Of a DNA stretch of 64,000 bases, positions 29,609 to 64,000 are shown piece after piece (the first letter of the stretch is position 1; every line of letters starts with the position of its first letter). The stretch is taken from contig CM046853.1 of the NCBI GenBank assembly GCA_025617745.1, forward strand, positions 17,217,174 to 17,281,173, read 5' to 3'. The notes beneath the pieces were generated by a model. That model did no database searches. It was not told the DNA's origin and worked only from the letters and a program-made list of their open reading frames with translations. The position numbers and the translations under genes are program-made. Source of the DNA: Heliocidaris erythrogramma. Taxonomy: Eukaryota; Echinodermata; Echinoidea; Camarodonta; Echinometridae.

Positions 29609-30699
29609 TTACAACTCTAACAGTTGCGTATCATCGTCAGCATTGAAGTAGCTTTCTGTGAACTGCAAATCAGCGTCCTCCATTTGGCGCTGTCTTTCGT
29701 ATTTGGGCAAGAAATAAATCCTCTTGCTTATCCCCAGTTTCTTGATTCGAGGAGATTGGATGTTACCGATCCTAGCCACACGTCTGGTCACCTGTGAAAA
29801 TATCCATAAGAAACGCAGAGACTAATTAGGCTGAGATTGGTGATAATGACTTAGAGAGCATGATGATCAATAATCATTTTAGTCTCCTTCAGAAATAGAA
29901 TAATACTAACTGTAACTTTATAAAGCATTGCAAACAGAAGCCCAAAAAAAATCTTTCGCACAATTGCTACGTTTTTCAGCAAAATGTCAAAAACAAAGAA
30001 AACAAAGAAGGAAATGAAAGTGATGCTCAAACATTTTGAGAAAGTCGACCGACTATGGCAGGTAGGCAAACATTCTGCATAATACAGGCTACCACCATTT
30101 ACCAACAATTTTTCATTGTCATCTACATCACCATGAATATCATCAATTTCATCATCATCATCATCATCATCTTCATCATTTTCATCATCATCGCCATCAT
30201 TATCATGGTTGTCATGATCACCACCATCACAACCATCATCATCATGATCATCATCATGATCATCATCACCATCACCATCATTACACTATCATCATTGTCA
30301 ACATCATCATCATTATCAACATCATCAAGGTTCTATGCTGATCGGGGCAGGACGATTTCTCCGTTTGATAAGAAAAATAGTTGATTGATCCTCGACGCTA
30401 TAACTGTAGTTTTTTCTTTACCAGTCAGCATTTTACTGTTTTATTTCGGTGCTCTCTTCACACTAGAAAGTGAAAATTAATCCTATTTTAGGATGGGGAT
30501 CCACTGTGCTACATCATTGCGAAGCAAGTCACATGAATACTATGTAATTCACTGGTAAGATATAACTTTAGGAAGATGGTTGAGCTTACCCCAGTCATGA
30601 TACTATCCAGATTGTCTTTGTGAGCTCTTGCAAGGAGCTCTTCACACACGATCTGTATGAACCACGACCCGTTCAAACCCTCTCGGATCGAGCGATACT
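29609..30699 (-). other. small-subunit (p10-like) caspase exons
   Basis: 30590-30699 reads EYRSIREGLNGSWFIQIV and ends SIMTG. 29609-29791 continues VTRRVARIGNIQSP and ends with a Glu/Asp-rich tail before TAA. The GSWFIQ and the [LM]T-x-V-x-R-x-VA motif are those of caspase small subunits. The usual YF-like C-terminal strand is represented by KRIYFLPKY. Confidence 0.88.
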
Positions 30700-33600
30700 C
30701 TGCCCAAAATAATATAGACAACCAGAAGATATCAAGGAATATTTTGGGGTTAGTAAATGATGGCGATGTATACAGAAAGAAACAAAAATGTTCTAAAAAA
30801 AACAAATGAATTAAAGCACTGTATAAGAAACATTCAAAACAGAAATTAGATTGATTAAGGTTTCGCAGTATTATATCATTGCAACCGAATACCACCAGAA
30901 CTGGATTCATGAAGCGTATATTTATGATCGATGTATCAGTGATAAATCCAGGGGATGGCAGAGGGGGTATTTGCCCCCAGCCAAATTTGATGACTCTTAT
31001 TTCAATATCTATTTTTTTATATATACAGTCAGGGGCACTTGTTAGAAAGAAAAAGGGGAACTTTCATTAGTAAAAGGGACAAATATCAGAGAGAAAGGGG
31101 CCATTTTTTCAGAAATAAAAAGGGCACTTTTGGGGTACTTGAAAAAGTGGGGGGTGGGGGCTCTGTGTACAGTATTTGTAATAATGATTATAATCATTTA
31201 TTTATCATCACATTTTTGTTTTGTTTGTCATTACTTTTTGAGATATAAACACCACAACCCACCCCCCCCCCCCCCACCCCAGCCCCGTCAACTGTCAGGG
31301 AATCCTGGATTCCATGGGAACTGTGATAGACACAAAAATGTTTCTCATGTTCACGAAAAATCGGCTGCTTTTGCAGACACTAAAACTATTTCGTTAAGAT
31401 CATTCGAACCTTTCATGATGACTTGCAAGATGAATGAATCCGCATTCTCGATCAGGAACCCGTCTGTCTCGAGAAACGATTTGGGCGATGAGAACCCCAG
31501 CTTGACATCGGGACTCGATGAGCCGTCCTTCACATTTTTCATTTGTGGAAAGCTCATACCTGTAGCACCCCGTGGTTTGGGTTCTAAATTATGAAAAGTT
31601 ACGCCAAAAAGATATATGGTATAAGCTCTAATTATATGAATATAATTGCATTTCCATGTGTGACGAATAATAGAGGGACGGGACTTTTCATGAATGGATG
31701 AAAAGAAACTAACTTATTTACATTGCTTGAAAGGGAAAATGAGTTGGTAGGTTCAATTTGGATTTGATTTGCGCAGTCAATTGACCAAAGCTTAAATAAT
31801 GAAATTTACCGAATAATAATTTCAAATTGATAAATAATGAAAGGTGATGAAAATAACCTAAATGTCATGATAGTGAACATGAACTCCATATCTTGCCTTG
31901 TACTTATCACGTAAGGACAACTTTATCCTCTTTGACTACCACCTCGTACAAATTGGGCTATTTCTTTCACGGAATTCTTTGGATATAAAGCCTGAAAAGT
32001 TTAAGAAATGTTACATGTATAAAACTCCTCCACACAGACGGATTTTCCTGTCTACTACACTGTAGTACACCAAGGGCAACGACCTCAAAGGATATTATAG
32101 CCGGTAACTACTGTCAGACAAGCAGTGGCGTATCTATAGGGATTATGGCGCCCGGGCAAAAAAATGAAGTTGCGCCTCCCCCCCCCCCCCCCCCCCCCCG
32201 TGCCCAAACCTATCTACGTTATTGTACAAGCGAGGGAGCAAAACGACGGAGCGGCAATTTTTCTTTTTGTATTTTAACCCTAAAAACACAACTTCTTGCT
32301 CATGTTACCCAGGAAATTTTGCAACTGACCACTGCAGTTGAGCGGTAGAGCAGTTTGTACATTGATAAACGGTTTTCTATTCACTCCCTTCTAAAATTGG
32401 GAGCAAAATTAACGAAAACCCTTGAGAAATAGTCCAGGAATTTAGCAAGTCGACTGAAAGTTGAGATTTCTTTTAAATGTTGAACCTCTGCAAATGCTAT
32501 TTTACGCAGTTTATCCTATATTGGGGGCGCAATATTTAGCAAGATGCAGATAAAACTTACATGATAGCGAGTGAAGCAACAATTTCATCTTTATTTTTAA
32601 AATTTTGAACCCTTACGAGATCCTGAAAGAAAATAATTATGCGAGGGAGCAAAGCGACCGAACTTCATAAATTTTATTTTCATTTTAAATTCTCAAAAAC
32701 TGTATTGCTAATGCATTTACCCTGCCGATTGGGGGCGCATAATCCTTAAGGAATATGATTGTTTCTTCATTCCCCCTTTTTCTTTCTTTCTCTCTTTTGC
32801 CTTTTTTGGGCCCCTACAAGTACCGCCCGGGGGCACGTGCCCTCCTAGATAGGCCACTGCTGAAAAAGAGACAAGTATCCCGGACATTACACCTAGCTCC
32901 TATTTTTAATAGAGGACATATCACCAGGCTTCAGAGTAATAAATTTTGGGAATTTTTACTTGAAGGTGTACTTGCGTGATTGTTCTACCCGGGTGCAAAT
33001 TGTCAGATATAACTGTCCTAACTCCCAAGGGCCTGTAAAGGGATATTTCGTTAGGGAGAGTTGTTGGTGAAAAGTTGTCTTTACAAATCTTACTTTCTTT
33101 CAAACATTGGTAGAAGAAGATCTTGGGTTTGTCTTCTAGGGCAGGGCAATTCTTGGTTGAGAACTGGTCCTGGATGTAGTCTAGAGGTACGGCCTGGTCA
33201 TCTACTCCAAGGATGGCATGTTCGTTACCGAGGGCCATGACGACCACGACCACGGAGGTGTGTTTCCTTGTGATGCGAGTCTTCAGCCGGTCAATAGAAG
33301 ACACGATGCCCTAGTTTATTATATCCAATGTTGATAGAAAATAGAATCGCTATTTAACGGGAAATCAGGAGCTGATCATTTAAAAAAGCATCATTACACA
33401 AACTATATACAATTCGCAGATAGATAATCTTGACGGTGTTCCTGAGACAAAATTATTTGTTTAACTTCACTTTTGCATCGGGTTGCATCGGTCCCACTAA
33501 AAGCAGCCAACAGCCGCCAACAGCATAGTTGCAAACACGCCGAAAACAAACCCCGGAGCAGCCACAAGACAACCAAAAAGCTCCTTAAATATTACTAAGG

Positions 33601-36600
33601 CTATTCTAAATATTCTGGTACGAAATCAACAAAAAATAAGTTAGAGCACATCCGACCCGTGCCCCCCCCCTTGAAACCCAAGTGGCCTTAAGTACACAAC
33701 TCCAGGTTCCACCCCCTCCCCCTTGTGTTAATGATCCTTGATCCGCCCATGGGTGAGAGTATGTTTCAATATGGAGAAGATTCCGGGTAAAGGTTGCTGT
33801 CGGACGCTGTCTATTTTGGGTGTAATAATATTATTAATAATAATAAGATTAATTTATATAGCGCAGCTACTATTTGAATAATATACTCTATTGCGCTTTT
33901 GATGGAGACTCCTATATGATTACATTATATTACATACACAGCTAATCTGCTTAAAAGCCTATGAAAATAATTACAAGAGGAAGTTGGTTCCAGAGTTTTG
34001 GAGCAGCACAGCTAAATGCACAATCTCCAACGGTTGATTTTGTTTTGGCATTTATGCAGCAGTTTAAGAACCAGTTTGTCTTGTGAATTTCGTAAGTTAT
34101 GTGAATATGGATGCAATTTAAAGGATAATAATTCAGACACATAATTTGGGGCTTGACCATTCAAAGCTTTGTAAACATGCAAAAATATCTTGAATCTAAC
34201 ATGTAATAACATATTTGTGAGAATAAAGAAAATTTGAGGTGAAACGTTTTAGGATGAAGGAAGTGTATTGAGGATGTTTCAGGTGAAAAATTTAACATCA
34301 ACTTTTTTTTTCTTTGCATATGTTCATCACATCAACCTCTTTCCCTTGCAGATCTACACCCATAAACAAGTTCACTTGTAATGAGAAATTATCAAATTTA
34401 CTCTCACTTCATCAACACAAAAACAGACAAAGAAGCACAGAGATATAGATTCAGAATTAGAAATAAAGACGTACATGTACATGTAATACAGTTTTATTAA
34501 AAATTAACAATGTTCATACAAATAATAAACGACATTCTAAATATCAAATCAAAGGTGACAATGTATATACATGTATGTTGAACAGAACACTGAAAATGTT
34601 GGAAAAATGTGAATTTTTATGAAAATCAATTTCCAGAACAAAAATTGTTTTAAAATAACTCAACTCCATTTGTATCTGATTTTATTGCTGATGTATTACT
34701 TTCAATGCCCAATTACAATGAATAAATTCTGTAACAATTTTATATAAAACACTGTGGAATGTAAGAGAAAAGTAGAAAAACTAATTTAAGTTACAAATTT
34801 GATGCATTAATAATCACAAGTAGATCAAATAATCTGCTTAGATACATAAAAGGCTGAAAGGGAGACACTAATTTGAATAGTGGTTGCTTTGTTGGGCAGC
34901 AAAATTTGACTGATATGGATTTTTTTATTAACCTCTGACGTCCAAGCTGATTGCCAAAGTCAACTTGAAAAAAGAAAAATTTTACCCAGGTACATCTACA
35001 AGTATTTGTTATCTTATATCCTCTCTTGAAACACATAGGCCTGCAACTTTTAGTGAGACTGTCAGACAATCAAAGTCAATGTATATGAAACCAATGTTGT
35101 CTTTTATAAATACATGTAGAGTAATTATAAACAGCATGAATAATTTTATGAATAGTAATATTTAACTCTTGTTCAAATCTCCACTCTAATTTTGCAAGGC
35201 ATTTAACTTGTGTGCCCCCAGATGTAAAGAAACTACTGAAATTTCAGCCCTGATATATTTTACCAATGATCAATTTCCATGTGACTATAAACTCAAGTTA
35301 GTTCATTGATGTAAGACAAACATCAGTAGATGACATATCAATATTATTACTTCATACTTTTATAAACAAAAATACACACCAAAATAAACAACAAGTAATT
35401 GCTATTCATGAAACTATATGACCATTCCATATTATCATTGCATGACAATTGGTACTGCTTGTACAACTTCTTAATATAATCACAATCATTTAAAGATTGA
35501 AAGAAAACTATCATTAAGAAAGGGATGATAAAATCATCACAAATATAATATAACTCACTTGTATTACCAAGGACATTTGATGTTAATTCCAACAAATCTG
35601 TCAGATCTCTTCTGGTTCAGGATTCATCTCAAACGCACATAGTCATTGAAATAGCGCATGTTGAAATATGCCTGCTACAGATGTAGTTTCCTTTTTTTGC
35701 AAACACTAAACACTAGATCTCGAAAGATTAAATTGTCTGTACATTGTAGCCTACCAATCTTGCAATATCTCAGAGGCCAAAATGTAAGCTATCACTGATT
35801 TCTTCTATCCTTTCCAGAGCTAATTGTTGATTCTCTCTCAGCATCTGTATTTCATTTAACAATGATTTTTCTTTTGCAGAGAGTCTTTTGTGATTTGTCT
35901 GCGCTGCTCTCAACTTCTTGTTCATCAAATCCATTTGGTTATATATGATATCTAATTTTTGCTTCACATCTTTGGGGCACGTCATTACACTGTACGTGTG
36001 ATCATGTGTGAATTTATTCATCTTGGGTTTTTTTGACTTAGAAGCACTGGTATGTGAGGTGGTGGTATCTGGTGAAGGGGTTCTCGTGGTAGCGGAACCT
36101 GTGGTAGTGGTAGTGCAACCTGTGGTAGTACTTGTGGAACCTGTGGTAGTGTTGCTTGTATTCGTGTCATCAAGCTCCATGAACATGTATTTTTCAGGCA
36201 GTTCAGCGATTTCTGATGCCCTGGCGAGGTAAGAGAGAGTTCCAGACTTGGGAATATCCTGTACTTTTCCATCCTGAAATAGATGTAGAACAAAAAATAA
36301 TGTATGACTGAACCAAACTTATTATATCACAAATATTATGACATCACTTTCATGTAAACTGACCCCTGTAACCTAGCTTTTGCCTACCAACCTCCAAGTT
36401 ACAAGTTAATGCTTCAAACTTTCTTGGGGTAATATGTATGTAAAGAGACAAAGAAAAGTTATACATATACAAACGGGACAATCAAATTTGAAAGCATGGT
36501 CAGTAAGATTTATGCCAGGTTCAAATTGTAATGTAGGCCTACTTCAGGTTATACACTGGTTTCAATCTGTAGTATATTCAATAAACCAAACACGTACATG

Positions 36601-39600
36601 TACATGTTTTCTCGAATTTGCTTTTATGTATTTTCTCTTCTAATTACCTTTGAGAGGTGAAATGGGAAAATTGTTGGTAATGCTCGATTACGTAGTCTTG
36701 TTGTTTGTCCCGTGCGATCAAAGCATCTTTCATGAAAGTGATCGGAACACAAAACAGATGCTGGTGACGGAACCCAGTCTGGACCTCTGCCTATTCTCTT
36801 CACCCATTCCTTAATCAAATCAGGAGATCGAGCAGGAAACCTTTAAAATAAAAAATAAAAATTATAAGAAAATATACAGCCTTGGAAAAAATTATTAGAC
36901 CAAGCTTCTGTAATAAGTGTACTATAATACGCGGCTAAAGTCGTTATTATGCCCAGCTGCCATTAAATCCACCTGAACAGTGAATAATTAGTAAAGTTTC
37001 TTGATTTTCATTGTTGAAATTCAGTTATTTATAACAGAATAAACGCTATCGTTATCGATTCATAACTGAAAAAATTATCAGCAAGAAAGAGCGGGATCCG
37101 AACCCGGGACCTTAAACCCGAGTGCAGTGTAGAAAGGGAATACTCTGACAGTCTGACCAGACACCTTTACCACTAGACCACGAGCAATTGACAGCAAATC
37201 TGATCTTGCTGCACTATATACCTCCGCTCCATACAAATCCTATCCATACCTCCGTTCTGCTGTTTTTTTTATGTCCTAGGTAGGATTCTTGCCAATTTGA
37301 CGATTACTGGGCATATTAGCTATAATAGCCTAATATGCAAACAAAATTATAAATATGATTTGTCTTTGTATTCATTGAATGAATAAAAAAATTCCAGCAA
37401 TTACACCTTGCTTTTATGATATTTTATTTCCTTCTAACCACAAAAATAACACTCAGTAACCATTCTTGGTCTAATATTTTTTTTCCATGGCTGTACATGT
37501 ATGGATATTTGAGCACAGACAAAGTGATCAGAACTAGATCTAAAAACTTTTTAAAAAGTCTTGTTACTCATTTGCATCAGTTTTTTTCTGGCATTCTATC
37601 AAAATTCAAATCAAACTCTCAATATTAAATCTAAGGCCAAAGTCGTTATTATGCCCAGCCGCCATTAAATCCACCTGAACAAGTGAATTATAATTAGTCA
37701 AGTTTCTTGGTTTTCATTGTTGAAATTCAGTTTATTTATAACAGAATAAACACTATCGTTATCGATTCATTACTGAAAAAAATATCAACAAGAAAGAGCG
37801 GGATCCGAACCCGGATTCTTGCCAATTTGAGGATTACTGGGCATATTAGCTATAATAGCCAAATCTAAAATCAGACCAATAACAAGGTAGTTAGATTTTA
37901 TTCATCAACATGAACCTCTGATTGGTCTACTATTTATAGTCTATCAAGTATAACTAATACTAGACAGAAATAACCATCTGGTATGGGCAAAATCTTTAAT
38001 ATTACTGCCATTTGGAACCTGACACAGTCTCAGAGGAACAACCAATGATTACAGAGAGACTGAAGCTTTTGGTCTAAACTATTAGTAAAACATACATGAC
38101 TGAGACCAAGTGTAATTGAAACGGCTATTTTGACTTTCAAGTGTCACTTTAAAAAGAAGAAGAAATGAGAAAGGATGAGAAAGGAAGAAGAGAAAGAAGA
38201 GAAAGAAGAGAAGACAACAGAGAAGAAGAAAAAGCTGATGATGTCTCATGAAGAACATGAAGAAAAAGTATATTAAGACTCAAAAATAATATGAGGAACA
38301 AGAACATGAAGAAGGGAAATATGAAAAAAGGGAAATATGAAAAAAGGGAAATATGAAAAAAGTAAAAAAGAAGTGAAGAAAATATAAGAGGGTGAGAAGA
38401 AAAAAGAAATAGGCCTAGGCCCACATCATACGGTAGAAGGAGAAGAAGAAGAGGAAGAAGCACTTATACATGTACAACTACAAGCTTATCTGAAGATAAC
38501 CTTGTACTCCAGACTAGTTTTTACGGGTGAATAGGCTTCAATAGCTTTTGTGTGTATCAGCAGGCCCTTTTCTAGGCTAGATCATTCATACAGGAGAGGA
38601 AAATAATTATTCAAAATTTCACTTTCAAGTTTGAATCCCTACATTTGTGGCAAAGTAAGACTAAGACTAAGAGTTGAAGAGTCCCAGAATCAGGTAATCT
38701 AGCAAATTTAAGAAAATCAAATCTTGTTTAGATTTTTTAGAAATTTAGAGCAATTTTGTTGTCTGCTTTTGACTGCTGCAACAGTGAATGTTGGACACAG
38801 TCCCACATAGGCAAGGGCCTATGTCCTATGAGTATGAGTGAGGAAGAGAAAAAAAAGAAGACGAAGAAGAACTTCAAGAAGATGAAAAAGGAGAACAAAA
38901 AAATAAGAAGTAGAACTAGGCCTAGAACTAGAATTAAGAAGAAGAAAAAAAAGAAGAGGGGGGAGAGAAGAGGAAAAAGAAGAGGGGAAGAGAAGAGGAA
39001 AAAGAAGAAGAGGGGGAGGAGAAGAGGAAAAAGAAGAAGAGGAGGAGGAAAAGGAAGAGGAGGAGGAAAAGGAAGAGGAGGAGGAAAAGGAAGAGGAGGA
39101 GGAGAAGTTCTAAATGAGTACTAGTCATGCTAGTAGTAGTAGTAATAGTACATTACAAGACAACTGACGTCGTTTAAATCGAATGGGACTAGTATTGCCA
39201 TGATTGCCGAAAATTTTCGCAACCAATAGCAATAATGAAGGGTAACTGTTTGTTTCGAGACTTACTTGTGAAATGTTTTCTTGACTCCTTTAGCCGAACG
39301 ACTTCGACAACTATGTGCAGCACAAGAGGGCATTGTAAATCAATCAACTTCCAAGTCAAACGAATCTCAACTTCCGCTTCGAATGGGTCTTCCAAAATGG
39401 CGACTAAAATAGTTACACGCGCGCGAATACTGTCCGCTCATATAGCGCACGCTCAGGTCCACAAGTACACGCAAGCAGCACCTGATCAGTGGTGCGTATT
39501 GTGATAAATCATGCACTATTATATAAATATCATTGTAAATTTGTAACGTTCTTTTGTTGTTGCTGTTGTTGTTTTTTTAGGGGGGAGGGGATTTGAAAGA

Positions 39601-54600: not shown

Positions 54601-57600
54601 AAATATACGGCACGGTGATTAATCATAAACACAGCTAGCGCCCTTCACTATGAACACGATGACAAAGAGAGCGGACAAAATATACAGCTCCTCATTGTAC
54701 CTTCCACAATTGCTCTGATAGACAAAAGAACATCCCTTGATTGCTATTATGTAAAAGTATGTAGAACAGGTGTCATGTGCATATTGACATGTTCTACTTA
54801 TTTTACATAATAGCAATGAAGGGATGTTCTTTTGTCTACCAGAGCAATTGTGGAAGGTACAATGAGGAGCTGTATATTTTGTCCGCTTCTTTGTTCGCCA
54901 TGTTCATAGTGCTTGGATGTCCTCGGGCTGCTTCTGCTAGTAATATACATGTAGTAAACACGTAATGCACAAACAACCCTTTAGCACATTAATTTGATAG
55001 TTGATTTGATTTCATTTTGATTTCTTTTCCCGTTTCAAATAATCATACATGATACATGATCAATGATTAAACATAAAACAATAACTTTGTATATATTAAA
55101 TTAACAATACAAAAATACGGGTATTAAGAACAGTACAAAAATAATTTTCTCAAAAGGATCATTATTGACCTTGGATTGGTTGGTTGGTTTTATTTTCCGT
55201 ATAAAAAGATCATCAACACATACATATAAATATACATGTACAAGAATATATAAATCAAGAATTAAATCAAGAATTATAACAAAACAAAACAAAACAAAAA
55301 ATAAAACGGAAGGGCATGATGAGAACGCAAAGCTTGTGTGATGAATGCCCCAAAGACTTAGTTACATAATAGAATTTTGGTCAAACAAATTATAACAATT
55401 GGATAAATAGTGGCGAAAATTACAGACAAATTTACGGCATGCCTACATACATGTAGGTTTACAGGAAAAGAAAGGAGGGAGGGAGTTGTAAAATAAGAGA
55501 CAGGAAATAGAAGGGAGAGAGGGGCGTTACAGGCACATGTTCACAGGAATACATTAAAGGTTGAGTGTGTTATTTTTATTATTTTTTTAATTATTTGTTT
55601 GATATTAGACTTGACCTGTTTGCAGGGGGTGCCTATATGTAAGGCTATTATGTGGGGAATATACAATGAGGGAAAAAAACTCATCTCAAAATGCAGGGTG
55701 TACCAAAACTTTTGACCAGTACTTTATCATTAAGGTATGACATAATTTAAAAACAAAAGCAAACACCAAACAAACAAAAAATGTTCAAAAACTAAACAGA
55801 AAATAATATGGTACAAAGTCTATCTGAAAATTTGAAATGATCAAAGCGAATTCTCATCAGCAAAATAGTGGATACTCTAAGCAGGCACACCATAGTTGAA
55901 TGTTAGTGCAACGAATTTTTAGGAGGCCTAAAAAATGGCATGATGTTAAAGGTAAAAAATTAAAAAAATTGACCCCAAAGAAAATATTGGGAGGGCAAAC
56001 ATATCGTTTTGCCTCCACCAATAAATCTGGAGGTTTAAGGAAAAATTATGTAAAACTCGGGAAATACAAATACCTTCCATACAATGAAATATGAAAGGTA
56101 TTACACGATCAGACCTCAATTTCACCTAATTCTCTTATTTTCCCTGCTTCATGTAACCGTAGAGAAACTGGTAATTAATAGGTACTATTAGGCTGTCTTG
56201 CCCTCCTCCAAATCCGAAAAATAGATTGACGCCCTTGAGGGTGGGGGGAGGGGGTACGTACTACCTAAACATTTTATTCTGACCCCGAAACACGGGGTAT
56301 ATTATTGTGCCAGAACAAGTAATTAGCATGCTGTTTTTATGTCGATGAATTAAGTCATCTTGGATTACATCAATATAATATAAAAATAGCGTATTTGAAG
56401 GGGCAAGGGGTGCAATATTTACTCCCTACAGATATATTAGTTTACAAAACGAGTTTACCACTTGCTATTATGTTAATATCATGTCTGCCTCTCAAACCGG
56501 ATGATTAACTCTCTATTGTTAATACAGTTGTTATTTAAAATATTTGGAAAGGTACAATAGACCTGTTTACTAATTCCATGCATACTTTTTGAACAAAAGT
56601 TTCTCTTGTCGACTCAAAAGCTTGCCAGAGGCTTGCCCGACATAGCAACAACCAATGCATGCAAAATGGATTCCATCCATAGAGATGCTATTATGCATAG
56701 CAGGTGCCCTAAATAGTTGGTAACTAAGGATTCTGGAGAGAAACATGCATAAATTGAAATACATTAGTAAACAGGTCTATTGCCTCACTTTACCCTCTTC
56801 TCTTCATCCCTATTTCTCTCTGTATCTTCTTCTCTTTCTCTCTCTCATTATTTTTATCATTATATTTTATCTCAAAGGGCTTCATGCTGTCAAGCCTCGG
56901 CTTATTATGAAAACCCCCTTGTTTGATTTCTCTTTCTATAATCCTACTGTTAGCCTTGTAGTTTAAAATATATTAATGTCATGATGTTTTATTGTATTGT
57001 ATATCGCATAATTTGTATAACGTATGCATTCTATTATTTGATGAATTGAGAAATCAAGCAGAAATAAAGAAATCAAATCAAATCAAAATGATAACTTATT
57101 TTTCAATCATTATCAAGCGACTATTTCCAAGCAAGTTGTTACATAAATTGAGGACATATTTTCGCCGCGCTCGCAATGCGATGTCGCAAAACAATTATTA
57201 TTAATAGTCAGACGTATTTCAAACTTCAAAGCCATTCATTCTGCATTTACCGTCAAAAGTTGTGAAGAGGAGGCTACCTCAACAACAAATATAGGGTATA
57301 CACCTACTGACTTACACACTATAAACCACTGAGTTACTTATTACTTATAATATAGCCAGACAAACCCGAAATTAACTTAAAATCCAACGGCAGGCGCTAG
57401 GTCTGAATAATTTTCGTTTGATAATGAAAAAAAAAACACACTTACGTCAGATGTTAATCCCGTTTCGACCACCGATTCATAGCCGATCTCACGGAAGACA
57501 TGTTCTATGTTGGTCACATCGATGTCGGAGCCATCTTTTATTTTCATATCTTTAGAAATACTATGGTTGTTGATGATGAATACAATTCCTTTGTTACGTA

Positions 57601-60600
57601 AACCCATGTCGTAATTCTGTGGCCAATCAACAAAAGAATTCATATTTATTTGGCTTGTCATATAATAAAGAAAAAAAAAAATTATATTCTACGTCTCTTT
57701 CGAAAATACTATGATTTTTGTCATTATTTTATACAGATTACAAGATACATATTCATATCCGATAGAAATATCACAAAAATCACAAAATCAGTAAAAGCGA
57801 TATCATTAATGACAAGCAAGCCAAATGAAGAGCTCACTTTTTGCTGGTATCATGTGTATTCGAAAGGTATATTGGGCACATAAACCCCATTTTGCACTTC
57901 TATACATGGGGGAAGATAGATAGACACTGTACCTCATGCAGTTGCAGCTGCTTCTGGGTGGGCGTGGCTTCTTTCACGTAATGATTACGATAGTACCCGT
58001 TATTATCAGGATGAACAACAAGAACTGAAACAAAGAAGAAAATGACTTAATAACATAACTAATGAAGCTCAAAGACCAAAGACCTCATATTATAATTAAA
58101 TGCAACTTTTATGACCAAACCATTTGGGTCTCATGAACAGTTAGTATAAATAGTACCTCAATAGAAAGAGGAAAAAGTAGAAAACCGTCTCCTTCGTAGA
58201 TGAATGATAAAAACATCACATTTATTATTTTCTTTATTCTTCTTCTTCTTTTAGTTCAAAGGCTAAACTGAATGCGTAATAGACGGTACTGATGGTGCAT
58301 ATAATATAATTATTTTTGAAAGGAACAAAATATCACGCCCGAAAAAAATTAAACCTGAAATTCGAGAGAATATTACTTAACGTTGATACATTGCAGATTA
58401 CAAATTAAGATAAAATTAACAAATATTTTCAAGTTATAATTGATTTAAACAATTACATATTTTTTAATAATGTGAGTATATTATCCATGGGGAAAAGGTA
58501 TTGAAAGAATAGAAAGGACATAGATTTACATCATAACCTTTACGATAATTATCGTTCTCTATTTACCTTCTTGACTACGTTCTATGCCATTTTCAATAAT
58601 CCTGTTGTCCTGGCGAAAAAAGAGATATTTGAATGAAATAACAATTTGATAATACCAAACCATAATTCATAATTAATTTCATAAACGAAAAATATGTCCG
58701 TGTTTGGTAAACTATTTTATACTCTCTAATCTATCGACTTAAAATCAGCATCAAATCAGCAATAATTATTTTTTATTTGACTTCCTTTATATTTGCGTCC
58801 CTTTGGCCTATCATAATAAGAGGAAGTAAAAATACGATCCGCATCGCGACTTTGTACCTAGGTTACAGGGTTGCCTTTGACAGTGTATATAGATAATCAT
58901 TGTTTCGACGAGCAGAGCAGCGAGTAGAATATTGTTGTGCTGAGCTCTGTTATTGAAACTGAAATTGAAATTATCCTGTTTTTCTCAATCGAAAGAGGAA
59001 ACAAAACTCTAACACATATTAGCTCTAGATGGTGAAGCGAAATAATAATTCTTGGTAGCTTTGAGAAGATAGACATGCAATTTCTTTTCCCTTGTTTTTT
59101 CTTAGTCTTGATATATCACTTATTTAGCTTGTATAATTACATACATGATTATGGAAGTTGTGTATCCATTAACGTAGAATCCACTCATATAATTGTGTGT
59201 GTGTGTGGGGGGGGGGGGTCCCAACATTGGTAGAGTCAATTAAACAAAAAGGTTCGGCAACATTGATTCACCGTCAAAAAAAAAGCTCGAAAAAGATCTG
59301 AGTACTAAAAACTGAAAATAAGCATGGAGGACACCCCTCCTTAGGGGAGACGCCCGTGTGTGGATCCCAAAAGTCCTTTTAAATACAACTTGGTCCTTAC
59401 CTTCTTAGAGAGTGGAAAGATCTTTATTCCAAAAACCGCAAGGAGGGAGAGCAAGACAACTCCAGCAGGAATCGACAAGTAGATCAAGCGGTTCACACCT
59501 GCAGATTAAATGTTGGTATGCTGTAATATTGTTACCAGATTCAATTTGGACTCTAATGATTAATACAAAAAGAAAATCAAGTACATAAAATTATATTAAC
59601 GTGATATTCATGATGCAATGATGCAGGGCGAAATTATGTGTTTTGTAATTAAAAAACGTAACTACATTACTATTTGAAGGTTGCGTGGAGTACCTACTCC
59701 TTTATTATATACATAGAATAAAATTTTGTGTATTATTTGCTTCTAAAATATATGATAAGAGATAAAATATGACATACAAAATGGATGATACTATATTAGT
59801 TTGATTATCTCCTGTCAAACTATACACTCTTCATCATGCATCAACAGTGATAGCGAGGGTCCTGTGAAAAGAGGGGTATAGTGTGTACACTGATGTAGAG
59901 GATGGGTTCGTACCATCTTCTTTTGATAGTCCTATTCCCTTTCTTTCTTTATCTCTCTCTCGCTCTCTCTCTCCCTCTCCCCCCCCCTCTCTCTCTCTCT
60001 CTCTTCCTTTCCCTTCTCTCTTTCTCTTTTTCTTCCTCTTTCTCTTTCTTCTCACTTCTCTGCCAATCGATGCCGAGTGCAAGGCAGGTGCTACGAAAGC
60101 CATATTGCCCATGGAGATTCATTAGATATAACTTATATCTCTTTTAAAATAAGAATTCCTTTCAAGTATTGTTTGAAATATGAAAACGGAATAATTCCAG
60201 CCAGTGATATACCTACTTGTTCTTCCAATTGGTATGTTTGTCGCCGACTTTGAAGTTGCAGATGATGAAGTTGCAGATGATGAAGTTGCAGATGATGAAT
60301 AGACCGATGACGTCAGCGAAGAAGACAATAATGATGAGGGAGTTGATGGAGTCGTGAGATGTGAATGAGATGTTGATTCCTCAGGCACACCTTGACTGGT
60401 TCGAGGGATAGGTCTAGTTGATGGCATTCTGGAAGTTCCTCTATGTACAGGATGTTTATTGTCTGTATGGAAAAAAATATTAACGTCATAGTTTGAGTAT
60501 GTATTATAGGTTTCCCCGTTCAATTTCACAATTTGTTCAATCTATTTCACATTTCGAGCATTCGAATTCACAAACGATATGATCGCCATGGTACATGTAA

Positions 60601-61598
60601 ATTCAAATCCCGACAGATTGATGAGAGACAGATAAAAAGAAAGAAAAATGAATAAGCAAAGATAGATAAATGTGCATATAAATGAAAGAAATCATAAAGT
60701 TGACAGAGAATCTGTCTATGGTGCTCATCTTGCATTCTCTGTCTTTAAAAAATGAAATTACTCTAAAAACTATAAAAAAGAAGAAGAAGAAGGAAAGAAA
60801 ATGTATACATGAAAGAATTAAGAAATTTGACAGAGAATATGTCCATGATACGATACTCGTCTTTCATTCTCTGTCTATCAATCTGTATATCCACCTATCT
60901 TTCAATATATATTTCAATCTACCCTTTATCTATCTCTTTACCTGTCTATCAATCTAATAATGCATTTCCTTTGCTGATGAATAAATAAATAAATCCCATT
61001 CATAAATATATGAAGAGAGATTAAAATGTATGGCATATAAAGCTTAATAAAAAGCAAGTCTATTTCTTAAATAGAGGCAAAAAGACATAAATGTATACAA
61101 AGACATTTCGGCACAAGAGGCACACGCATGGACATCATTAAAAACCACGAAATCCGTGAAAGTTGATCAACGAATCTTTGATTTTAAAATGAATTCCTTA
61201 AAATGAAAGTGAATGCCCAAACAGGCCCCTCTGGGGTACTTTCTTAATTTGAATGCATGAACATTGAAATCTAATGCACGAAATTTGAAACCGTATAGTA
61301 CTAAAACGAATTCGTAAGAACGATCGCTAAGTTGAATACCCTGAAAATAAATCGAATGCGGATAAAGAAAAATGGAATGATATTAATTGAAATAATCGTG
61401 TCCATAAATGAATTTCAGTATTCATAAATTAATCCGCTTGTCTCGAAAAGAATTTCAATGACTCCATTCAAAATTTGAAAGACCGATATCGATCGTTAGA
61501 CGATAGTGTCTGAATTTGAATGCATCTAAATTAATTTGACTGACAAAAATATGAAATCGAGCGGGAAAACCTATACATCGATCTTCATAAATTTATTA

Positions 61599-61630
<32 letters not shown>

Positions 61631-63487
61631 TATTATTATTATTATTATTATTATAATAATAATAATTATTATTATTATTATTATCATTATTATAGTATTA
61701 CCATCATTAGTATCATTACCACTATTCTTATCATCATCGCTGTTGTGTCATTGTAATCATCATCATCATCATCATAATTATTGATAGTATTATAATAGTT
61801 GGATTTGAGGAAGCGCTTATCCTCGTTTTTTATAGAGTTGAAAACGAAGCATAATGGGTACATAATGTATCTCACTCTATGACGCAACCGATGTCTTATA
61901 ATGAATGTCTCGTTCTAAGTTTTGATATCTTGTTCAGATAAAACATATTTAAGGTCTGCAGAAGTGAATGTAATGTACCAAAGACATCTATACCTTGGCA
62001 TGATGGGACAGTGCCGTTAAATTCCGTGTTGCCACAGCAGACGAGGAATGCGTTACCGATGAGCGTCGTATCCTGGTGGGCGCACTGGAAGTCACAAACC
62101 GCGCAAGTGTTAACACTTGCTCCCGGAGGGCACGCCCCATTCGGGTTCACAATGCCTTGAGGATAGTTGGGCACGGTGCAGGGATCTTCAAAAGACATAA
62201 ATATGTATCTGATCACTTTAATTTTCATAATAATGTGGTCATATTTACTCAGGGTAGCCTCGTCAGTATGCAGTTACTGCTCTTCGTTCCTCTTGGTGCA
62301 CGCAGAGGAATATAAATCCACTAGTTCAATTGGGAGTCATATTTATTAGGGAGAAGCTCCTTGAGTTGAATCCATTCCAAATCATAGTGGAATTCACTCC
62401 AAAGTAAAGGTTGAATTACTCTTTAAGAATGGATTCCACTCTAACGAAGTGATCCCTACAATGACTCCCCAAGAAGTGGATTTCCACTATTCTTCATTTA
62501 AAGAGTGAGGGACTTGCAAGACCAGATATTACACCAGTATTGATACACCTGGGCCGAGAGGGACAAATGTGGGTAAAACACTTTGTCCAAGGATGTAAAC
62601 TCTGAGCAAGGATCGAACCCAGGACTTTAATACGAGTCAAGAGCCTGCACGAAAATACCACGCTGCTGCCTCTTTATACATCTACTACATTTTGCAATTT
62701 TGGAAATGCTTAAGTTGGTAGTCCTCTTAATATGTCTAAATCTTTGATAGATCTTTGGGGGTGTTGTTCTTGTGAAAGAAATGGCATTACGTACCCGGAA
62801 TTTTACCATTTCTTCTCAGGAGGTTGAATAGAGAAGCGAGCGACGCATCAACAGCTTCCCTTGTAGAAGAATATCCTTTAACAACGATAGACATTTTTGT
62901 TTCAACATCCTCAGCTAGAGCATCAAAGACGAGGAATTTTTTTAAAGTAAATATCCGGGAGTAACTTCTCCATTGTATCGCTCTGTGACAGAAAACGGTC
63001 TGTGAAAAAACAGGGGGAAGAAAATTCAGGGCATGATATTTACTAAACATCGAAATAATTCAAAATATTGATATTATAATAGTAAGACATCCTAATCAAA
63101 CTGACAAATTCAAATTTCAAAAACCAGAGATGTATATTATTCAAATTTGTAATACGTGTATACATGTATATACACTTTCATCCCCACTTTTTCTGCCTCT
63201 CTTTTAAGAAATAGATGTACATCGTTTGCCTTGTTGATATCTCTTTGTATTTCAAGACAAAATTTATTGAAATGTTATTGCACTTTCGCCCTGGACCGCT
63301 GTTCATCTTCCAGATAGTTCCCACCACTTCCAAAGAATCCATTTTTTGTAATGCCAAAATTAGCAAAATTAGAAACTGTAATGAACTTTAAAGTTAAAGC
63401 TGTTTTTAAGCGTTAGTAGTGTATACTTACGGTATCTTCGTGTTTATGTCCACCTACGAGTTCGTTCACAGTGAATTTTGTAATTTG
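29609..63487 (-). CDS. transmembrane CCP-caspase-like receptor (pseudocaspase), 3' part of gene
   Basis: Twelve phase-consistent minus-strand exons, 5' to 3': 63431-63487, 62795-62999, 61994-62185, 60217-60462, 59401-59498, 58567-58609, 57933-58024, 57446-57616, 33094-33310, 31410-31583, 30590-30699, 29609-29791 (TAA). They sum to 1788 nt, or 595 residues. Order: unrecognised N-terminal region, sushi/CCP-like domain, Ser/Thr/Pro-rich stalk, single transmembrane helix, cytosolic caspase fold. The caspase part aligns along its length with caspase-3: MGLRNKGIVFIINN, DGSDIDVTNIEHVF, LNGSWFIQIVCEELL, MTGVTRRVAR. The catalytic His is Leu (ALG for SHG) and QACRG reads QCLKE, so proteolysis is unlikely. 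The S1-pocket Arg in the SWRN segment is kept (SIRE); the other (R64) is Lys. Weak points are the 24-kb intron between the eighth and ninth exons and the non-consensus donor GTTCGA after 31410. The signal peptide is expected beyond 64000. Confidence 0.78.
30130..30335. repeat. (CAT)n microsatellite
   Basis: Irregular ATC/ATCACC repeat in an intron of the caspase-like gene. Confidence 0.9.
31410..31583 (-). other. intersubunit linker exon of the caspase-like protein
   Basis: It joins the end of the large subunit to the start of the small one. It holds several Asp residues, including LETD followed by Gly at 31462-31473, which resembles an initiator-caspase cleavage site. It ends ENADSFILQVIMK, which aligns without a gap to the caspase-3 segment beginning ADFLYAYST. 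The donor is non-consensus (G|GTTCGA), but phase and alignment length both fit. Confidence 0.7.
32123..32859. mobile_element. hAT-like non-autonomous element
   Basis: The left end CAGTGGCGTATCTA and right end TAGATAGGCCACTG form hAT-type termini. The interior has a poly-C run near 32178-32199 and no transposase. Flanks share AGACAAG, but the right copy lies nine bases beyond the terminus, so the duplication is uncertain. Confidence 0.55.
33094..33310 (-). other. large-subunit (p20-like) exon with degenerate active site
   Basis: It reads HTSVVVVVMALGNEHAILG where caspases have VCVLLSHGEEGIIFG, so the catalytic His is Leu. It ends KPKIFFYQCLKE where caspase-3 has KPKLFIIQACRG. The motif Gln aligns, but Cys stands at the Ala position and Leu at the Cys position. 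The acceptor at 33311 is poor in pyrimidines; phase 0 matches exon 57446-57616. Confidence 0.85.
33835..34230 (-). pseudogene. LINE reverse-transcriptase C-terminal remnant
   Basis: Reads FLHVYKALNGQAPNYVSELL in one frame (34050-34190), then shifts frame and continues TVGDCAFSCAAPKLWNQLP (to about 33970). This is the ALNG-AP-Y and AAP-LWN-LP signature of CR1/L2/Rex1-type LINE ORF2 ends. It is followed on the minus strand by an AT-rich 3' tail with 'atatagcgc'. It is broken and 5'-truncated. Confidence 0.75.
34231..35769. other. non-coding, partly 3' UTR/flank of the THAP gene
   Basis: AT-rich, with no recognisable ORF. Minus-strand AATAAA-like hexamers occur, but none could be assigned. Confidence 0.35.
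35770..39333 (-). CDS. THAP-domain protein with C-terminal coiled coil (three exons)
   Basis: 254-aa nuclear DNA-binding protein. Exons: 39266-39333 (starts MPSCAAHSCRSRSAKG, phase 2), 36648-36840 and 35770-36273 (TGA). The THAP domain (residues 1-87) has zinc ligands C4 and C9 and, in VLCSDHF, the second Cys and His. The conserved Trp is in IKEWVKRIG, and the AVPTIF-type motif reads ALPTIF. A Thr/Ser-rich linker follows (TTTGSTSTTTG), then a Lys-rich patch KSKKPKMNK. The last ~65 residues form a probable coiled coil (MDLMNKKLRAAQTNHKRLSA onward). Phase fits at both introns. It sits in the large caspase-gene intron on the same strand. The introns and intact frame suggest a host gene, but some THAP genes derive from P-type transposases. 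Confidence 0.85.
36933..37330. mobile_element. MITE carrying a tRNA-like segment (copy 1)
   Basis: Ends GGCTAAAGTCG and CTATAATAGCC are imperfect TIRs that share GGGCATA/TATGCCC further in. Flanks TAATACGC (36925-36932) and TAATATGC (37331-37338) match at seven of eight bases. It lies in the first intron of the THAP gene. Confidence 0.7.
37091..37185 (-). repeat. tRNA-derived sequence with A and B boxes
   Basis: On the minus strand it reads 'gctcgtggtctagtggta' (A-box-like) at the start and 'ggttcggatcc' (B-box) near the end, about 95 nt overall. The D-arm wording resembles tRNA-Glu. The stem pairing and length are not those of an intact tRNA, so it is called a pseudo-tRNA or SINE head. Confidence 0.6.
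37635..37860. mobile_element. MITE, internally deleted relative (copy 2)
   Basis: Matches copy 1 at both ends but lacks most of the tRNA-like interior. It is flanked by exact 8-bp duplications AAATCTAA (37627-37634 and 37861-37868), the size expected of hAT or P-type insertion. Confidence 0.82.
38150..38460. repeat. GA-rich (GAA/GAGAA) low-complexity tract
   Basis: Imperfect GAAGAA and 'gggaaatatgaaaaaa' repeats. ORFs on either strand are low-complexity by-products. Confidence 0.8.
38845..39112. repeat. GA-rich (GAAGAG)n low-complexity tract
   Basis: Polypurine tract in the first intron of the THAP gene, with a 15-bp sub-repeat GGAGGAAAAGGAAGA near its end. Confidence 0.85.
40017..40620. 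mobile_element. 604-bp palindromic MITE
   Basis: Termini GGCCAAGTCCACC and GGTGGACTTGGCC. The two arms, each about 230 bp, are nearly exact inverted copies (for example 'aatcggatgtaaaataagaa' against its complement near 40520-40545). Central spacer about 40240-40400. Target duplications are not evident. Confidence 0.8.
40917..41228. mobile_element. MITE with ~65-bp TIRs
   Basis: GGCCCGTCTTCTGAACTCCGG at the left is mirrored by CCGGAGTTCAGAATACGGGCC at the right. Trinucleotide CAT flanks both ends (40914-40916 and 41229-41231). Confidence 0.8.
42254..42597. mobile_element. MITE-like element with internal ~105-bp duplication
   Basis: Inverted termini 'ctatagagtaccgaagtg' and 'cacttcggtatactctat'. 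Inside, two copies of 'ggtgaacctcatgcgcggg...ggacgacgagcga' lie about 105 bp apart (from about 42412 and 42508). It abuts the left end of the large element. Confidence 0.6.
42642..43250. repeat. left terminal array, four ~160-bp units
   Basis: Units start near 42642, 42801, 42961 and 43122 with 'aaatttggcata'-like sequence. Each carries 'attgccggcccccagcga' and 'gccgccatcttga' except the last, which is decayed. Overlapping ORFs are by-products. Confidence 0.88.
43251..46794 (+). other. 5' region of the large element, possible non-coding exons
   Basis: Possible leader exons end at donors 'gatg|gtaagt' (near 43593) and 'gcag|gtgagt' (near 45352), before the acceptor 'tctctttcag' at 46781-46789. 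The region also holds a CTT-rich tract near 44935-45020 and a hAT-like MITE at 46416-46637. Otherwise it is AT-rich with no ORF of note. Confidence 0.35.
46416..46637. mobile_element. 222-bp hAT-like MITE
   Basis: Ends TAGTGGCAGATCCAGG and CCTGGATCCACTGCTG are flanked by identical CTGTTTGG at 46408-46415 and 46638-46645. G- and C-runs fill the interior. Confidence 0.75.
46795..51414 (+). CDS. large zinc-knuckle / FEN-like nuclease-signature protein of the putative transposon
   Basis: One uninterrupted 1539-aa frame. I start at the ATG at 46795, just after a strong acceptor (tctctttcag, to 46789); the frame is open 25 codons further upstream. Seen: two similar CxxC...HxxC motifs (C20-C23 with WHKRC at 89-93; C147-C150 with YHKKC at 200-204); a DNIDHNPSS motif at 495; then acidic motifs in FEN/XPG order: FDGAALVHQ (D1131), VDVVWDTYRSDSLK (D1176, D1180), HEEADTR (E1271, E1272, D1274), ATDTDVVVL (D1298, D1300), SGCDTVSALAGIGKKT (D1357 plus a helix-hairpin-like GIGKK); and a C-terminal Cys-rich segment (1505-1534, CKCKKRCTGNCKC) resembling CXC/tesmin repeats. 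I recall uncharacterised invertebrate proteins with the DNIDHNP motif but no named family. Likely role: nuclease or transposase of the element. Function is inferred. Confidence 0.8.
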   Translation: MSTSEKAPSTMARPTDWSLCALCQEYSENELLRDASRASNQSSRDVYETLAQNLRTLNDVGALPCGINISRLDEGCGIAETLGTHAAKWHKRCYRQCCSYNVGRAESRARKRAAENKLDEEVFSPVKKRLRTSFASSSVTQSDASTCFFCDTVINNDQIVHRVATLNLDSKVRMMATELRETELLAKLSVGDMTASGAVYHKKCLTALHTRYRSFVRKNEVQASSNETMQLESVALAELVSYLEEMKCTDGSYTVFKLADLVKLYTERLVQLGGDASKRINSTHIKDKLLRQLPSLEAHTTNHEVLLSFKEDTGEALLHACGQSSDDDAVILMRAAQIVRKDIFQRQYQFNGSLLDESSNNTAPSLTALMQMILAGTNIKKQTAIKKGVSVHVQSLSQLVTFNTIKRGRLETAAVRHNVERETSLPLYLGLLIHSKTRKRDLVDVLFQYGVSVSYDRVLQVSTDEANRVIEVYEKDRVVCPTKLRSGLFTTGNLDNIDHNPSSVSSRSSFHGTAISLTQHVSQDNSGTIRNHENFTANEKSKRRKVITALPTSYSDVPPAAFPSNQPIPRKSKGQSTPNVSTRIEDKESQWLSFVHRLHENGSLESEENISWAAYMANLQVGVPRPPAITGLLPMFRESAHTLAMVKHGMNLIKQATDLVNPGQVPVLTVDQPLYAIAKKIQWTWPSVYGEDKFVVMMGGLHIEMALLKVIGDFLEGSGWTSVMTNAGVTTEARAESLQKGSQTSRAQWAHQVTAAALYSLQQRAYEDYLKTCASEDIKSFDAWKLKMATDYPQFCYWNKVLQLECLLLAFIRSQREANYMLYVETLRAIIPWMFAMDHYHYARWLTVHLTDLQGLPNNSMNTHRAFVDGKFVTQKSSHRFSAIANDQVHEQQNAVVKGDGGVIGITENEAALRRWMVAGPEIARIVSEFEDQFQSQKEPDVRHHDQLPSVQKSFASDLNNSISSFEKLGNPFAEDTKDLYVLDTKVIMPNEVIAQLRSVEETGNKQFNAFVEKRLNDSSVSFYDNISKNNLGLFKSKPKKTPAKSLMKMTNMKSNVELFSRMYISCQARDGDLDAFFEHECHGWPPALAEDINTMRPPTSKADLVPCLEALVPYPERPDETPVAEVCIFDGAALVHQLDPKKCSSVIRTFGDYAQKQFLPYIARKLNEETVVRVDVVWDTYRSDSLKGGTRLGRGSGIPLHVTEQTSVPHNWSSFLRVNSNKKTLFSFLAASLQTMNVPDGKTLLTTQGEEVKSNPHSDVWQNIQPCTHEEADTRMVLHAWQAYQQGYQSIIIHATDTDVVVLAIAVASKMDGIAMWSAFGHGKNLRYIGAHTISTKLGPERSWGLLFLHAVSGCDTVSALAGIGKKTVWDIWISMPNLGEVFNRLSNAPVEVTNDDMDIIERFFVVLYSRTSSLKKVNEARKQLFAQGNRQLENIPPTKEALRQHVKRAIFQAGHIWGQSQSANPELPSPEDWGWTKDGDDGWHPFWTLLPEASKGCRELIKCKCKKRCTGNCKCFAANLPCTGLCFCFGQCFRDEE
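51415..52449. other. 3' region of the large element
   Basis: Non-coding. It holds the MITE at 51724-52047 and degenerate traces of the terminal-array sequence (for example 'ttcaaaatggctgtc' near 51665). Confidence 0.45.
51724..52047. mobile_element. MITE nested in the large element
   Basis: Ends GGGTGGTATTCC and GGAATACTGCCC. Inside each are inverted 'aagttaagcctggctt' / 'agcttagtctggactt' sequences. Trinucleotide ATT lies on both sides. Three-base duplications fit a Harbinger-type insertion. Confidence 0.65.
52450..53395. repeat. right terminal array, about six ~158-bp units
   Basis: The sequence 'gtgccacaggtcatgtaaaa' recurs near 52465, 52598, 52756, 52913, 53070 and 53230. Units carry 'catggcggccattttgaaa' and 'caagatggcggccga'. 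Orientation is opposite to the array at 42642-43250. Confidence 0.9.
53731..53774. repeat. short interstitial telomere-like repeat
   Basis: About seven TTAGGG/TTTAGGG-type units in a row, just outside the right end of the large element. TTAGGG is the usual metazoan telomere repeat. Confidence 0.75.
54015..54113. repeat. poly-C plus (AAC)n tract
   Basis: C14, A10, then AAC/AAAC repeats. The Cys/Val-rich minus-strand frame is a by-product. Confidence 0.9.
54646..54911. mobile_element. 266-bp palindromic MITE
   Basis: Arms of about 125-130 bp run from 'cactatgaacacgatgac' to 'gttcatagtg' with high complementarity and a short centre near 54770-54785. Trinucleotide CTT flanks both ends (54643-54645 and 54912-54914). 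Confidence 0.75.
56555..56782. mobile_element. 228-bp element with 20-bp perfect TIRs
   Basis: The sequence 'caatagacctgtttactaat' at 56555-56574 is exactly inverted at 56763-56782. It is non-coding, in the large intron. Target duplication is not clear. Confidence 0.65.
57446..57616 (-). other. first p20-like exon of the caspase-like gene
   Basis: 57 codons in phase 0 at both ends: NYDMGLRNKGIVFIINN, then KDGSDIDVTNIEHVFREIGY. This corresponds to the beta-1 strand, the R-S-G-T-D-x-D segment and helix 1 of caspases. Lys replaces the S1 Arg of that segment. Confidence 0.88.
57933..58609 (-). other. juxtamembrane cytosolic exons
   Basis: 58567-58609 (DNRIIENGIERSQE) and 57933-58024 (NNGYYRNHYVKEATPTQKQ) link the membrane helix to the caspase fold with matching phases. 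No CARD or DED is visible. Several Tyr and Thr residues could be modified, but that is speculative. Confidence 0.7.
59401..59498 (-). other. transmembrane-helix exon
   Basis: It reads VNRLIYLSIPAGVV, then LLSLLAVFGIKIFPLSKK: about 22 hydrophobic residues bounded by Arg on the outer side and Lys-Lys on the inner side. It joins the stalk exon in phase 1 and the next exon in phase 0. Confidence 0.82.
59940..60055. repeat. CT-rich microsatellite
   Basis: (TC)n with C-runs, in an intron of the caspase-like gene. Basic or Ser/Pro-rich ORFs across it are by-products. Confidence 0.9.
60217..60462 (-). other. Ser/Thr/Pro-rich stalk exon with 15-bp coding repeat
   Basis: About 81 residues dominated by Ser, Thr and Pro, as in O-glycosylated stalks. 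It contains three identical 15-bp units (60252-60296) encoding SSSAT. Phase 1 at both ends matches the CCP and transmembrane exons. Confidence 0.8.
60600..61590. other. intronic, no gene recognised
   Basis: AT-rich intron between the CCP and stalk exons, with GA- and AATA-rich patches. Nothing coding was seen. Confidence 0.5.
61593..61690. repeat. (TTA)n microsatellite
   Basis: About 100 bp of TTA/ATT repeats with a short inverted switch to AAT in the middle, in the same intron. Confidence 0.92.
61994..62185 (-). other. sushi/CCP-like domain exon
   Basis: A single exon, phase 1 at both ends as is usual for CCP modules. It reads PCTVPNYPQGIVNPNGACP, then CAHQDTTLIGNAFLVC, then TEFNGTVPSC. 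The spacing C...PN...G....G..V...C......L.G.....C...G.....P.C fits a sushi domain, but extra Cys residues make it divergent. Confidence 0.72.
62200..62794. other. intronic, no gene recognised
   Basis: AT-rich intron between the CCP exon and the unknown-domain exon. Contains several 'agtggaatccactc'-like short inverted motifs near 62385-62480. Confidence 0.4.
62795..63487 (-). other. N-terminal exons of unknown domain
   Basis: 63431-63487 (QITKFTVNELVGGHKHEDT) and 62795-62999 (ending REAVDASLASLFNLLRR, NGKIP). Both are in phase with each other and with the CCP exon. They should be extracellular. I do not recognise the domain. An alternative acceptor exists at 62914, but only the one at 62999 keeps the frame. 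Confidence 0.55.
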
Positions 63488-64000
63488 CTCTTTAAAGGTA
63501 AGAACAGAGAATGACGGCAGACAGTCATATTTTTTTTTTCAACAAACATACATTCATCCGTATCGGTAGCTTCAATACTTATCATTTTCATGCATTAGAA
63601 AGGGTAGCAAAGTCGGATTTTCTCAAAACGTAGAATTCTTGTTATATTTATTATTCTAAAGTTTCATCTATAACTTTGCATAGAAGGAAATTTGTTTGTC
63701 ACAGTTATTCAATACAGATATGATCGTTTGATCAAGAACATGACGATATATAGCCATATTAAAAAGTTCCACGAGTTGGATAATAATAATAAGAAGAAGA
63801 AGAAAGAACATGAAAACAATAAAGTGGTTCGCCATATGTATCCAACTGTTTATTTTTCCTTAACAAAATTTTCCTACCCGTGCCTCGGGTCTTCCTCAGT
63901 GTTAAGACAATGACAATATAATACAGATATATATATATATGATAAAAGAATTCTCCGTCACGGATAATGGTAAATATGTTAGAAAGAATCAGAAAAAAAG
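63488..64000. other. upstream intron of the caspase-like gene
   Basis: AT-rich, with no further exon identified on the minus strand. The start codon and signal peptide of the gene are expected beyond the window. Confidence 0.4.

Follow-up and report, generated by a model that had tools for sequence, protein, structure and literature searches.

Vertebrate death receptors rely on adaptor domains to recruit caspase-8 and FLIP(L). Complement receptors and selectins share with the protein described here the CCP (sushi) module, and we know of no CCP/sushi receptor or regulator that carries a caspase tail. FLIP(L) has both its catalytic His and its catalytic Cys replaced, is cleaved at the linker residue Asp376, offers no suitable site before p20, and forms a heterodimer that remains at the receptor complex (PMC7586951). 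Its likeness to the protein encoded in the window, by which we mean the whole 64,000-nt stretch of Heliocidaris erythrogramma DNA analysed here, extends over the caspase fold, the replaced dyad, the retained linker Asp and the missing site before p20; however, FLIP(L) is recruited through tandem DEDs, whereas the window protein has a predicted membrane helix of its own and no DED match in a Pfam scan (PMC7586951). A further precedent is a TNFR-transmembrane-caspase hybrid of amphioxus (Brafl1_82667), which was described in 2008 with cDNA support and keeps QACXG (PMC2575513). As presented there, it is likewise predicted to be transmembrane, with a recognition domain outside and a caspase inside, but its ectodomain is of the TNFR type, where that of the window protein, which has no TNFR match in the Pfam scan, consists of a CCP and a family-specific N-terminal domain (PMC2575513). 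The statement of the initial annotation that known caspases are soluble was thus incomplete, and, since the amphioxus protein came earlier, the window gene is to be seen as a variant of the receptor-caspase rather than as the first one; what is supported of the claim to a new kind of receptor is the combination of CCP, membrane segment and caspase fold.

Among the titles and abstract beginnings listed for the open-access literature, none describes a sea-urchin CCP-caspase receptor. The words transmembrane, sushi and CCP do not occur in an amphioxus caspase paper (PMC3196919), and in a survey of Paracentrotus cell-death genes sushi is absent and transmembrane is used solely for TNFRs (PMC6394757); the available parts of five other articles (PMC7836458, PMC10967218, PMC2246300, PMC11121540, PMC2779465) mention no membrane caspase. 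An echinoid caspase query also returned two leucine-rich-repeat/GTPase proteins with a caspase domain from Branchiostoma floridae (P0043 and P0044, 1336 and 1375 aa), one of which is named an MFHAS1 homolog by its source.

The window gene is modelled with 12 minus-strand exons that run from 63489 down to a stop codon at 29609 and are all joined in phase (Table 1), and the resulting model of 587 residues stays open throughout, without a stop or frameshift. This reproduces, from E1 at 63489-63431 to the stop, the 12 exons in consistent phase that the initial annotation had proposed with few coordinates; its ends (29609 and 63487) and its junction 57446/33310 fit our model, but the product is 587 and not 595 residues long. 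E1 is the least certain of the 12 exons, and the block of E1 and E3 aligns to residues 40-118 of P0002, an uncharacterized predicted protein of Diadema antillarum, with a z of 12.5. No signal-peptide exon was found for the window gene, and a signal-like run spotted by eye at about 63835 (MANHFIVFMFFLLLL) was omitted because it lacks a good donor that would join it to E1 in phase. The acceptor at 33310 is weak, with a pyrimidine fraction of 0.33 versus 0.50-0.94 at the other exons, and the donor of the linker exon is non-consensus, as are the corresponding donors of the paralogs.

Table 1. Features of the window gene, in window positions, listed from the 5' end of the gene.
Feature	Positions	Strand	Evidence
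Tentative exon E1, start of N-terminal ectodomain (QITKFTVNELVGGHKHEDT)	63431..63489	-	splice sites, phase, E1+E3 alignment
Exon E3, family-specific N-terminal extracellular domain	62795..62999	-	z 12.2 to P0002 53-118
CCP/sushi exon, six aligned cysteines	61994..62185	-	z 16.8 to P0002 120-179; z 18.8 to P0035 166-227
Ser/Thr-rich stalk exon	60217..60462	-	open and in phase; Ser/Thr-rich stretch equally placed in P0032-P0037
Transmembrane exon; predicted helix LIYLSIPAGVVLLSLLAVF at about 59487-59431, basic residues next	59401..59498	-	hydropathy and P0035 alignment
Juxtamembrane exon 1 (RIIENGIERSQE)	58567..58609	-	with juxtamembrane exon 2 aligns to P0002 389-436, z 14.9
Juxtamembrane exon 2; PDNNG (58010-57996) where P0002 has PDVDG	57933..58024	-	
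First p20 exon, caspase profile 1-48	57446..57616	-	Pfam; z 28.1 to P0002; phase-0 end at conserved intron position
24,135-nt intron with mobile-element-like DNA	33311..57445	-	position and phase as in 13/13 readable loci
Second p20 exon (p20-b); His->Leu 33232-33230, Cys->Leu 33103-33101	33094..33310	-	Pfam E 2.7e-10
Inter-subunit linker and p10 start; LETD site 31473-31462	31410..31559	-	donor phase common to paralogs
p10 exon 1 (GSWFIQ...)	30590..30699	-	with linker exon z 25.2 to P0002
p10 exon 2 and stop codon	29609..29791	-	z 11.3 to P0002 705-731; Pfam up to profile position 231

Joined, the model contains one complete Peptidase_C14 domain (Pfam E 9.1e-30, profile positions 2-230 of 233), and the caspase pieces scanned apart cover positions 1-48, 53-127 and 158-231, the first of them, the p20 start, scoring 20.1 bits and thus slightly below the Pfam cut-off of 21.4. 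Sequence comparison with the PDB matches this caspase to chains of CED-3, caspase-3 and caspase-8. The Kyte-Doolittle maximum is 2.42 over 19 residues, in the sole segment of the model above threshold, which follows the Ser/Thr stalk, precedes the caspase and has an equally placed counterpart in ten homologs. The transmembrane exon and the exons following it align to residues 364-430 of P0035 (z 9.4); the P0002 alignment of this block begins just past the helix, which is therefore placed by hydropathy and by P0035.

The CCP of the window gene has six aligned cysteines and no Pfam match when scanned alone. In whole-protein scans, the Sushi domains of P0002, P0003, P0008 and P0009 lie above the Pfam cut-off and those of P0032, P0033, P0034, P0036 and P0037 below it, and P0035 has none; scanned alone, the first CCP of P0002 and that of P0033 both pass. 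A CCP profile matches the chains of CR1, CR2, MCP, DAF and factor H, a result that overstates the resemblance of the window's own module because three rows of the profile are Diadema CCP2-4. The N-terminal domain exon gave no Pfam match, and its profile yielded three PDB matches at E 0.4 or worse, none of them convincing. A structure predicted for P0002 from ten rows had a mean pLDDT of 37.8 and was set aside.

Relatives with the same plan occur among the gene predictions of other sea urchins, several of which are named isoforms. The CCP-to-end part of the model protein retrieved seven proteins, six from Diadema antillarum (among the 7998 candidates sharing most words), of which P0002 and P0003 hold Sushi and caspase domains within a single chain. 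P0003 in turn added P0008 and the D. setosum protein P0009, the 22 remaining matches being CCP proteins without a caspase label, and its caspase half retrieved 21 proteins; those with the same plan include predictions for Strongylocentrotus purpuratus and for two species of Lytechinus. The plan is thus shared by predicted proteins of Diadema, Strongylocentrotus and Lytechinus: an N-terminal domain (seen in models that are not cut short), one or more CCP modules, one transmembrane helix and a cytosolic caspase. The domain order of the window gene, from N-terminal domain (where the model is not cut short) and CCP through helix and juxtamembrane region to the caspase, recurs in LOC105439692 (S. 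purpuratus), LOC121408581 (L. variegatus), LOC129263184 and LOC129280876 (L. pictus), and the uncharacterized Diadema proteins P0002, P0003, P0008 and P0009, of which the last four have three to four Sushi matches against the single CCP in the window. In the Strongylocentrotus and Lytechinus proteins, as in the window gene, CCP and helix are separated by a Ser/Thr stretch. A further Diadema antillarum protein, P0001 (769 aa), in which caspase, N-domain, CCP and caspase follow one another in one chain, was not counted, being probably a fusion of two adjacent receptor genes merged by annotation.

Nine overlapping blocks that together take in 11 of the 12 exons (the stalk was left out) align to P0002 in gene order with z of 11.3-29.7, and every block exceeds its 300 shuffles. 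Against P0033 and P0035 the N-terminal blocks score weakly (z 3.5-5.0; E3 alone 4.2-5.0), E1+E3 against P0033 just equalling its best shuffle, and E3 and the transmembrane-plus-juxtamembrane block against P0033, as well as E3 against P0035, falling below theirs. N-domain, CCP, juxtamembrane region, p20 and p10 are thus homologous in the family and stand in the same order in the window gene, which we file as a member by descent, to judge from its sequence, and not as an active protease. The homologs bear out the claimed order of N-terminal region, CCP-like domain, Ser/Thr stalk, one helix and full p20/p10, and the paralogs described below that of N-domain, CCP and caspase. The architecture, with N-domain and CCP outside, one predicted helix and the caspase inside, is very probable, and the protein would be a type I receptor at the cell surface.

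Comparisons within the 1.06-Gb genome point to further members. At loci K and L (contig C11), matches to the N-domain, the CCP, two p20, the linker and two p10 exons are ordered on one strand, the evidence here consisting of N-domain, CCP and caspase exons; the membrane helix is shown for the homologs of other species. Locus K has a p20 exon that shares 80.6% identity with the Lytechinus protein P0033, and the window CCP exon finds its best matches elsewhere in the genome in the corresponding exons of K and L (E 7.3e-8 and 1.4e-7) among 60, mostly ordinary CCP exons that rank below them. Five more members of the family (A, B, C, I and J) are preceded, at a distance of 4.6-12.6 kb and in the same orientation, by matches to the N-domain or the CCP. 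That of J is strong (E 1.7e-8) and one of the two of A reaches E 0.0036; the second of A, like the ones at B, C and I (E 0.27-0.59), is supported by where it lies. For such weak matches, the chance expectation is about 0.018 in one search and 0.008 in the CCP-exon search, an estimate that uses 20 loci and a 15-kb limit picked after the matches were seen, with the starts of C and F set by hand. When short upstream pieces from ten paralog loci were scanned for the transmembrane exon, four candidates appeared, in A, D and F, and none was accepted; the scan is not specific, since the window yields four as well, the accepted helix among them.

Some neighbouring observations concern the wider set of caspases. 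The pairs at C4:8.13/8.77 Mb and C13:9.56/10.10 Mb have equal or near-equal scores and lie about 0.5-0.6 Mb apart, and may be either recent duplications or unmerged haplotypes. P0038, a caspase-6-like protein of Lytechinus pictus (507 aa), has four hydrophobic segments before its caspase, as judged by hydropathy only, and a PDVDG juxtamembrane motif; it may represent another type of membrane caspase within this clade. P0038-like loci of the H. erythrogramma genome lie at C13:9.56 Mb (L018, L054) and C13:10.10 Mb (L019), with a p20 exon 82% identical.

The claimed completeness of the p20/p10 homology holds for the fold; what had been missed is that both catalytic residues are replaced. The window reads MALGNE, with ALG at the SHG position, and YQCLKE, with QCLKE at the QACRG position, so that His and Cys are both Leu, whereas the sea-urchin homologs keep SHG and QACRG, as do all 16 paralog loci compared in the same genome (QSCRG in F); these were found by similarity to motif-intact caspases, and dead copies could be under-sampled among them. 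The p20-b exon ends four codons and one nucleotide after the Q in the window and in the paralogs alike, and because this distance is shared the QACRG match is ungapped and the Cys is Leu, for which reason we reject an alignment that would keep the catalytic Cys at the price of a one-residue gap. A Lys of the window aligns with an Arg position of its relatives, which, by caspase-3 numbering, we take to be the S1-pocket Arg. With His and Cys both Leu, the window copy is not expected to work as a normal protease, and its sequence makes it very probably catalytically dead.

The linker has fared differently from the dyad, in that its LETD site is kept exactly and is identical in P0002, P0003, P0008 and P0009. 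All linkers examined carry an initiator-type Asp site (LETD, IETD, VDTD and similar), those of the same genome having been found with a pattern requiring the acidic-x-Asp form, which did not capture the linkers of G-J, M and N. An Asp just before the juxtamembrane Gly (mostly PDVDG) is present in 13 of 17 rows, a count that leaves out P0036, whose model has no juxtamembrane exon; it is absent in the window (PDNNG) and in loci I, G and M. A lost dyad, a retained LETD and a frame that is open and constrained would make the window protein a pseudo-caspase receptor, FLIP(L)-like in its logic, and to a model in which it forms heterodimers with active members of the family we assign a probability of roughly 0.48.

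The lost dyad would also be found in a receptor-caspase gene that, catalysis once gone, is heading towards a pseudogene with no current function, and the long p20 branch, the 24-kb intron with its mobile-element-like DNA, the weak acceptor at 33310 and the missing signal-peptide exon would suit such decay. Against it stand the 587 codons that run over 12 exons without stop or frameshift, the retained splice phases and LETD site, and amino-acid constraint in the face of saturated synonymous sites: between the p20-b exon of the window and those of six paralogs, pS is 0.73-0.83 and pN 0.39-0.46 (71-72 codons), compared with a pN of 0.04-0.29 among the six, which suggests that the window copy has changed more than its motif-intact kin, but not freely. 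When the 71-codon p20-b exon was taken by neutral simulation to 60% amino-acid difference, 14% of 500 runs remained free of stops (mean 1.98 stops), a test that is modest alone, since it covers 71 of the 587 codons, all 587 of which are open. A p20-b tree of 32 rows, which uses one exon of about 73 residues and in which the intact motif of the homolog rows is there by construction, these having been excised by their QxCxG motif, separates the window and 28 other rows of the echinoid clade from three outgroup rows (97/98); the window branch is long (1.64), its position inside the clade is not fixed by the tree, and the tree tool cautioned that long branches may have been joined falsely. Decay thus appears the less likely reading, and the window gene is probably a functional regulator or scaffold rather than debris.

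Functional need not mean coupled to active caspases, as a receptor could employ its inactive caspase fold as a scaffold that binds partners in signalling or adhesion, independently of active paralogs. Retention of fold and membrane helix alongside loss of the catalytic residues would fit this, as would the fact that no active paralog was found close to the window gene. The inter-subunit LETD site has been kept, however, and it would be useful mainly if another caspase cuts there, for which reason we consider an independent scaffold distinctly improbable.

A further objection would be that two separate genes have been joined, one for CCP and transmembrane segment that stops near 57446 and one for a caspase that begins near 33310. 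In each of the 13 loci (A-I and K-N) where both flanks of the break could be read, as was done by eye, p20 is interrupted in phase 0, 11 codons past the conserved [EQ][IL]GY, just as in the window, and no second p20-start match exists within the window at E 0.01; the claimed 57446/33310 join is thereby backed. The intron is long, its 24.1 kb comparing with gaps of 0.4-7.3 kb between p20 matches in 15 other loci, and part of this excess is mobile-element-like: arrays of a 159-nt repeat at 52539-53385 face inverted copies at 42618-43250. Between these arrays lies a 1567-codon stop-to-stop open frame (46711-51414, plus strand) with a cysteine-rich end and no Pfam match, and, as the inverted arrays flank it, the whole is likely to be a single mobile element, about 10.8 kb long. 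The same intron contains, on the strand of the caspase gene, an open frame with a THAP domain (36842-36624) and a Thr-rich, probably coiled-coil one (36318-35770), which we propose to be a nested host or transposon-derived gene; another THAP open frame lies elsewhere in the window (20025-20321, plus strand). A THAP-like frame on the same strand within the 24-kb gap is what one might expect between two genes, but the first p20 exon sits on the CCP side with the remaining p20 across the junction, and it is mainly the family's intron position and phase, the single p20-start match and the prediction of the homologs as single proteins that lead us to reject the two-gene reading as very improbable. 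That the copy is still a protease, using the Cys of QCLKE that adjoins the lost position one residue ahead of the usual place, is scarcely credible given that the His is Leu, that the Arg position we presume to be S1 aligns with Lys, and that the anchored exon end makes the Cys a Leu without a gap.

Returning to the FLIP-like heterodimer model, one can picture how motif-intact members of the family would act. A ligand would cluster their ectodomains and bring the attached caspases together, upon which these would dimerise and cut one another at the LETD-type linker, so that, with clustering driving dimerisation and mutual cutting, receptor and initiator caspase would be one molecule; cleavage at the candidate site between Asp and Gly of PDVDG (PDVD/G) may then let them leave the membrane. 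The window protein, with fold and linker site but no His/Cys dyad, would either form a heterodimer with an active paralog, to which it lends its fold, or block that paralog, and, because the candidate release site reads PDNNG, it would stay fixed at the membrane. Its role may lie in immunity or cell death.

Taken together, recognition, membrane anchoring and caspase apparently reside in one chain, and motif-intact and dead versions of it occur in one genome. We tentatively suggest, as a possibility that leaves considerable room for doubt, that sea urchins may possess a hard-wired death-receptor family, combining recognition and initiator caspase in one molecule, and that a membrane-fixed pseudo-caspase receptor evolved within it as its regulator, convergent with FLIP(L) but without adaptor or death domains. 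If true, this would represent a second way, testable in sea urchins, of linking recognition outside the cell to the activation of caspases, and control by pseudo-caspases would have originated independently here.
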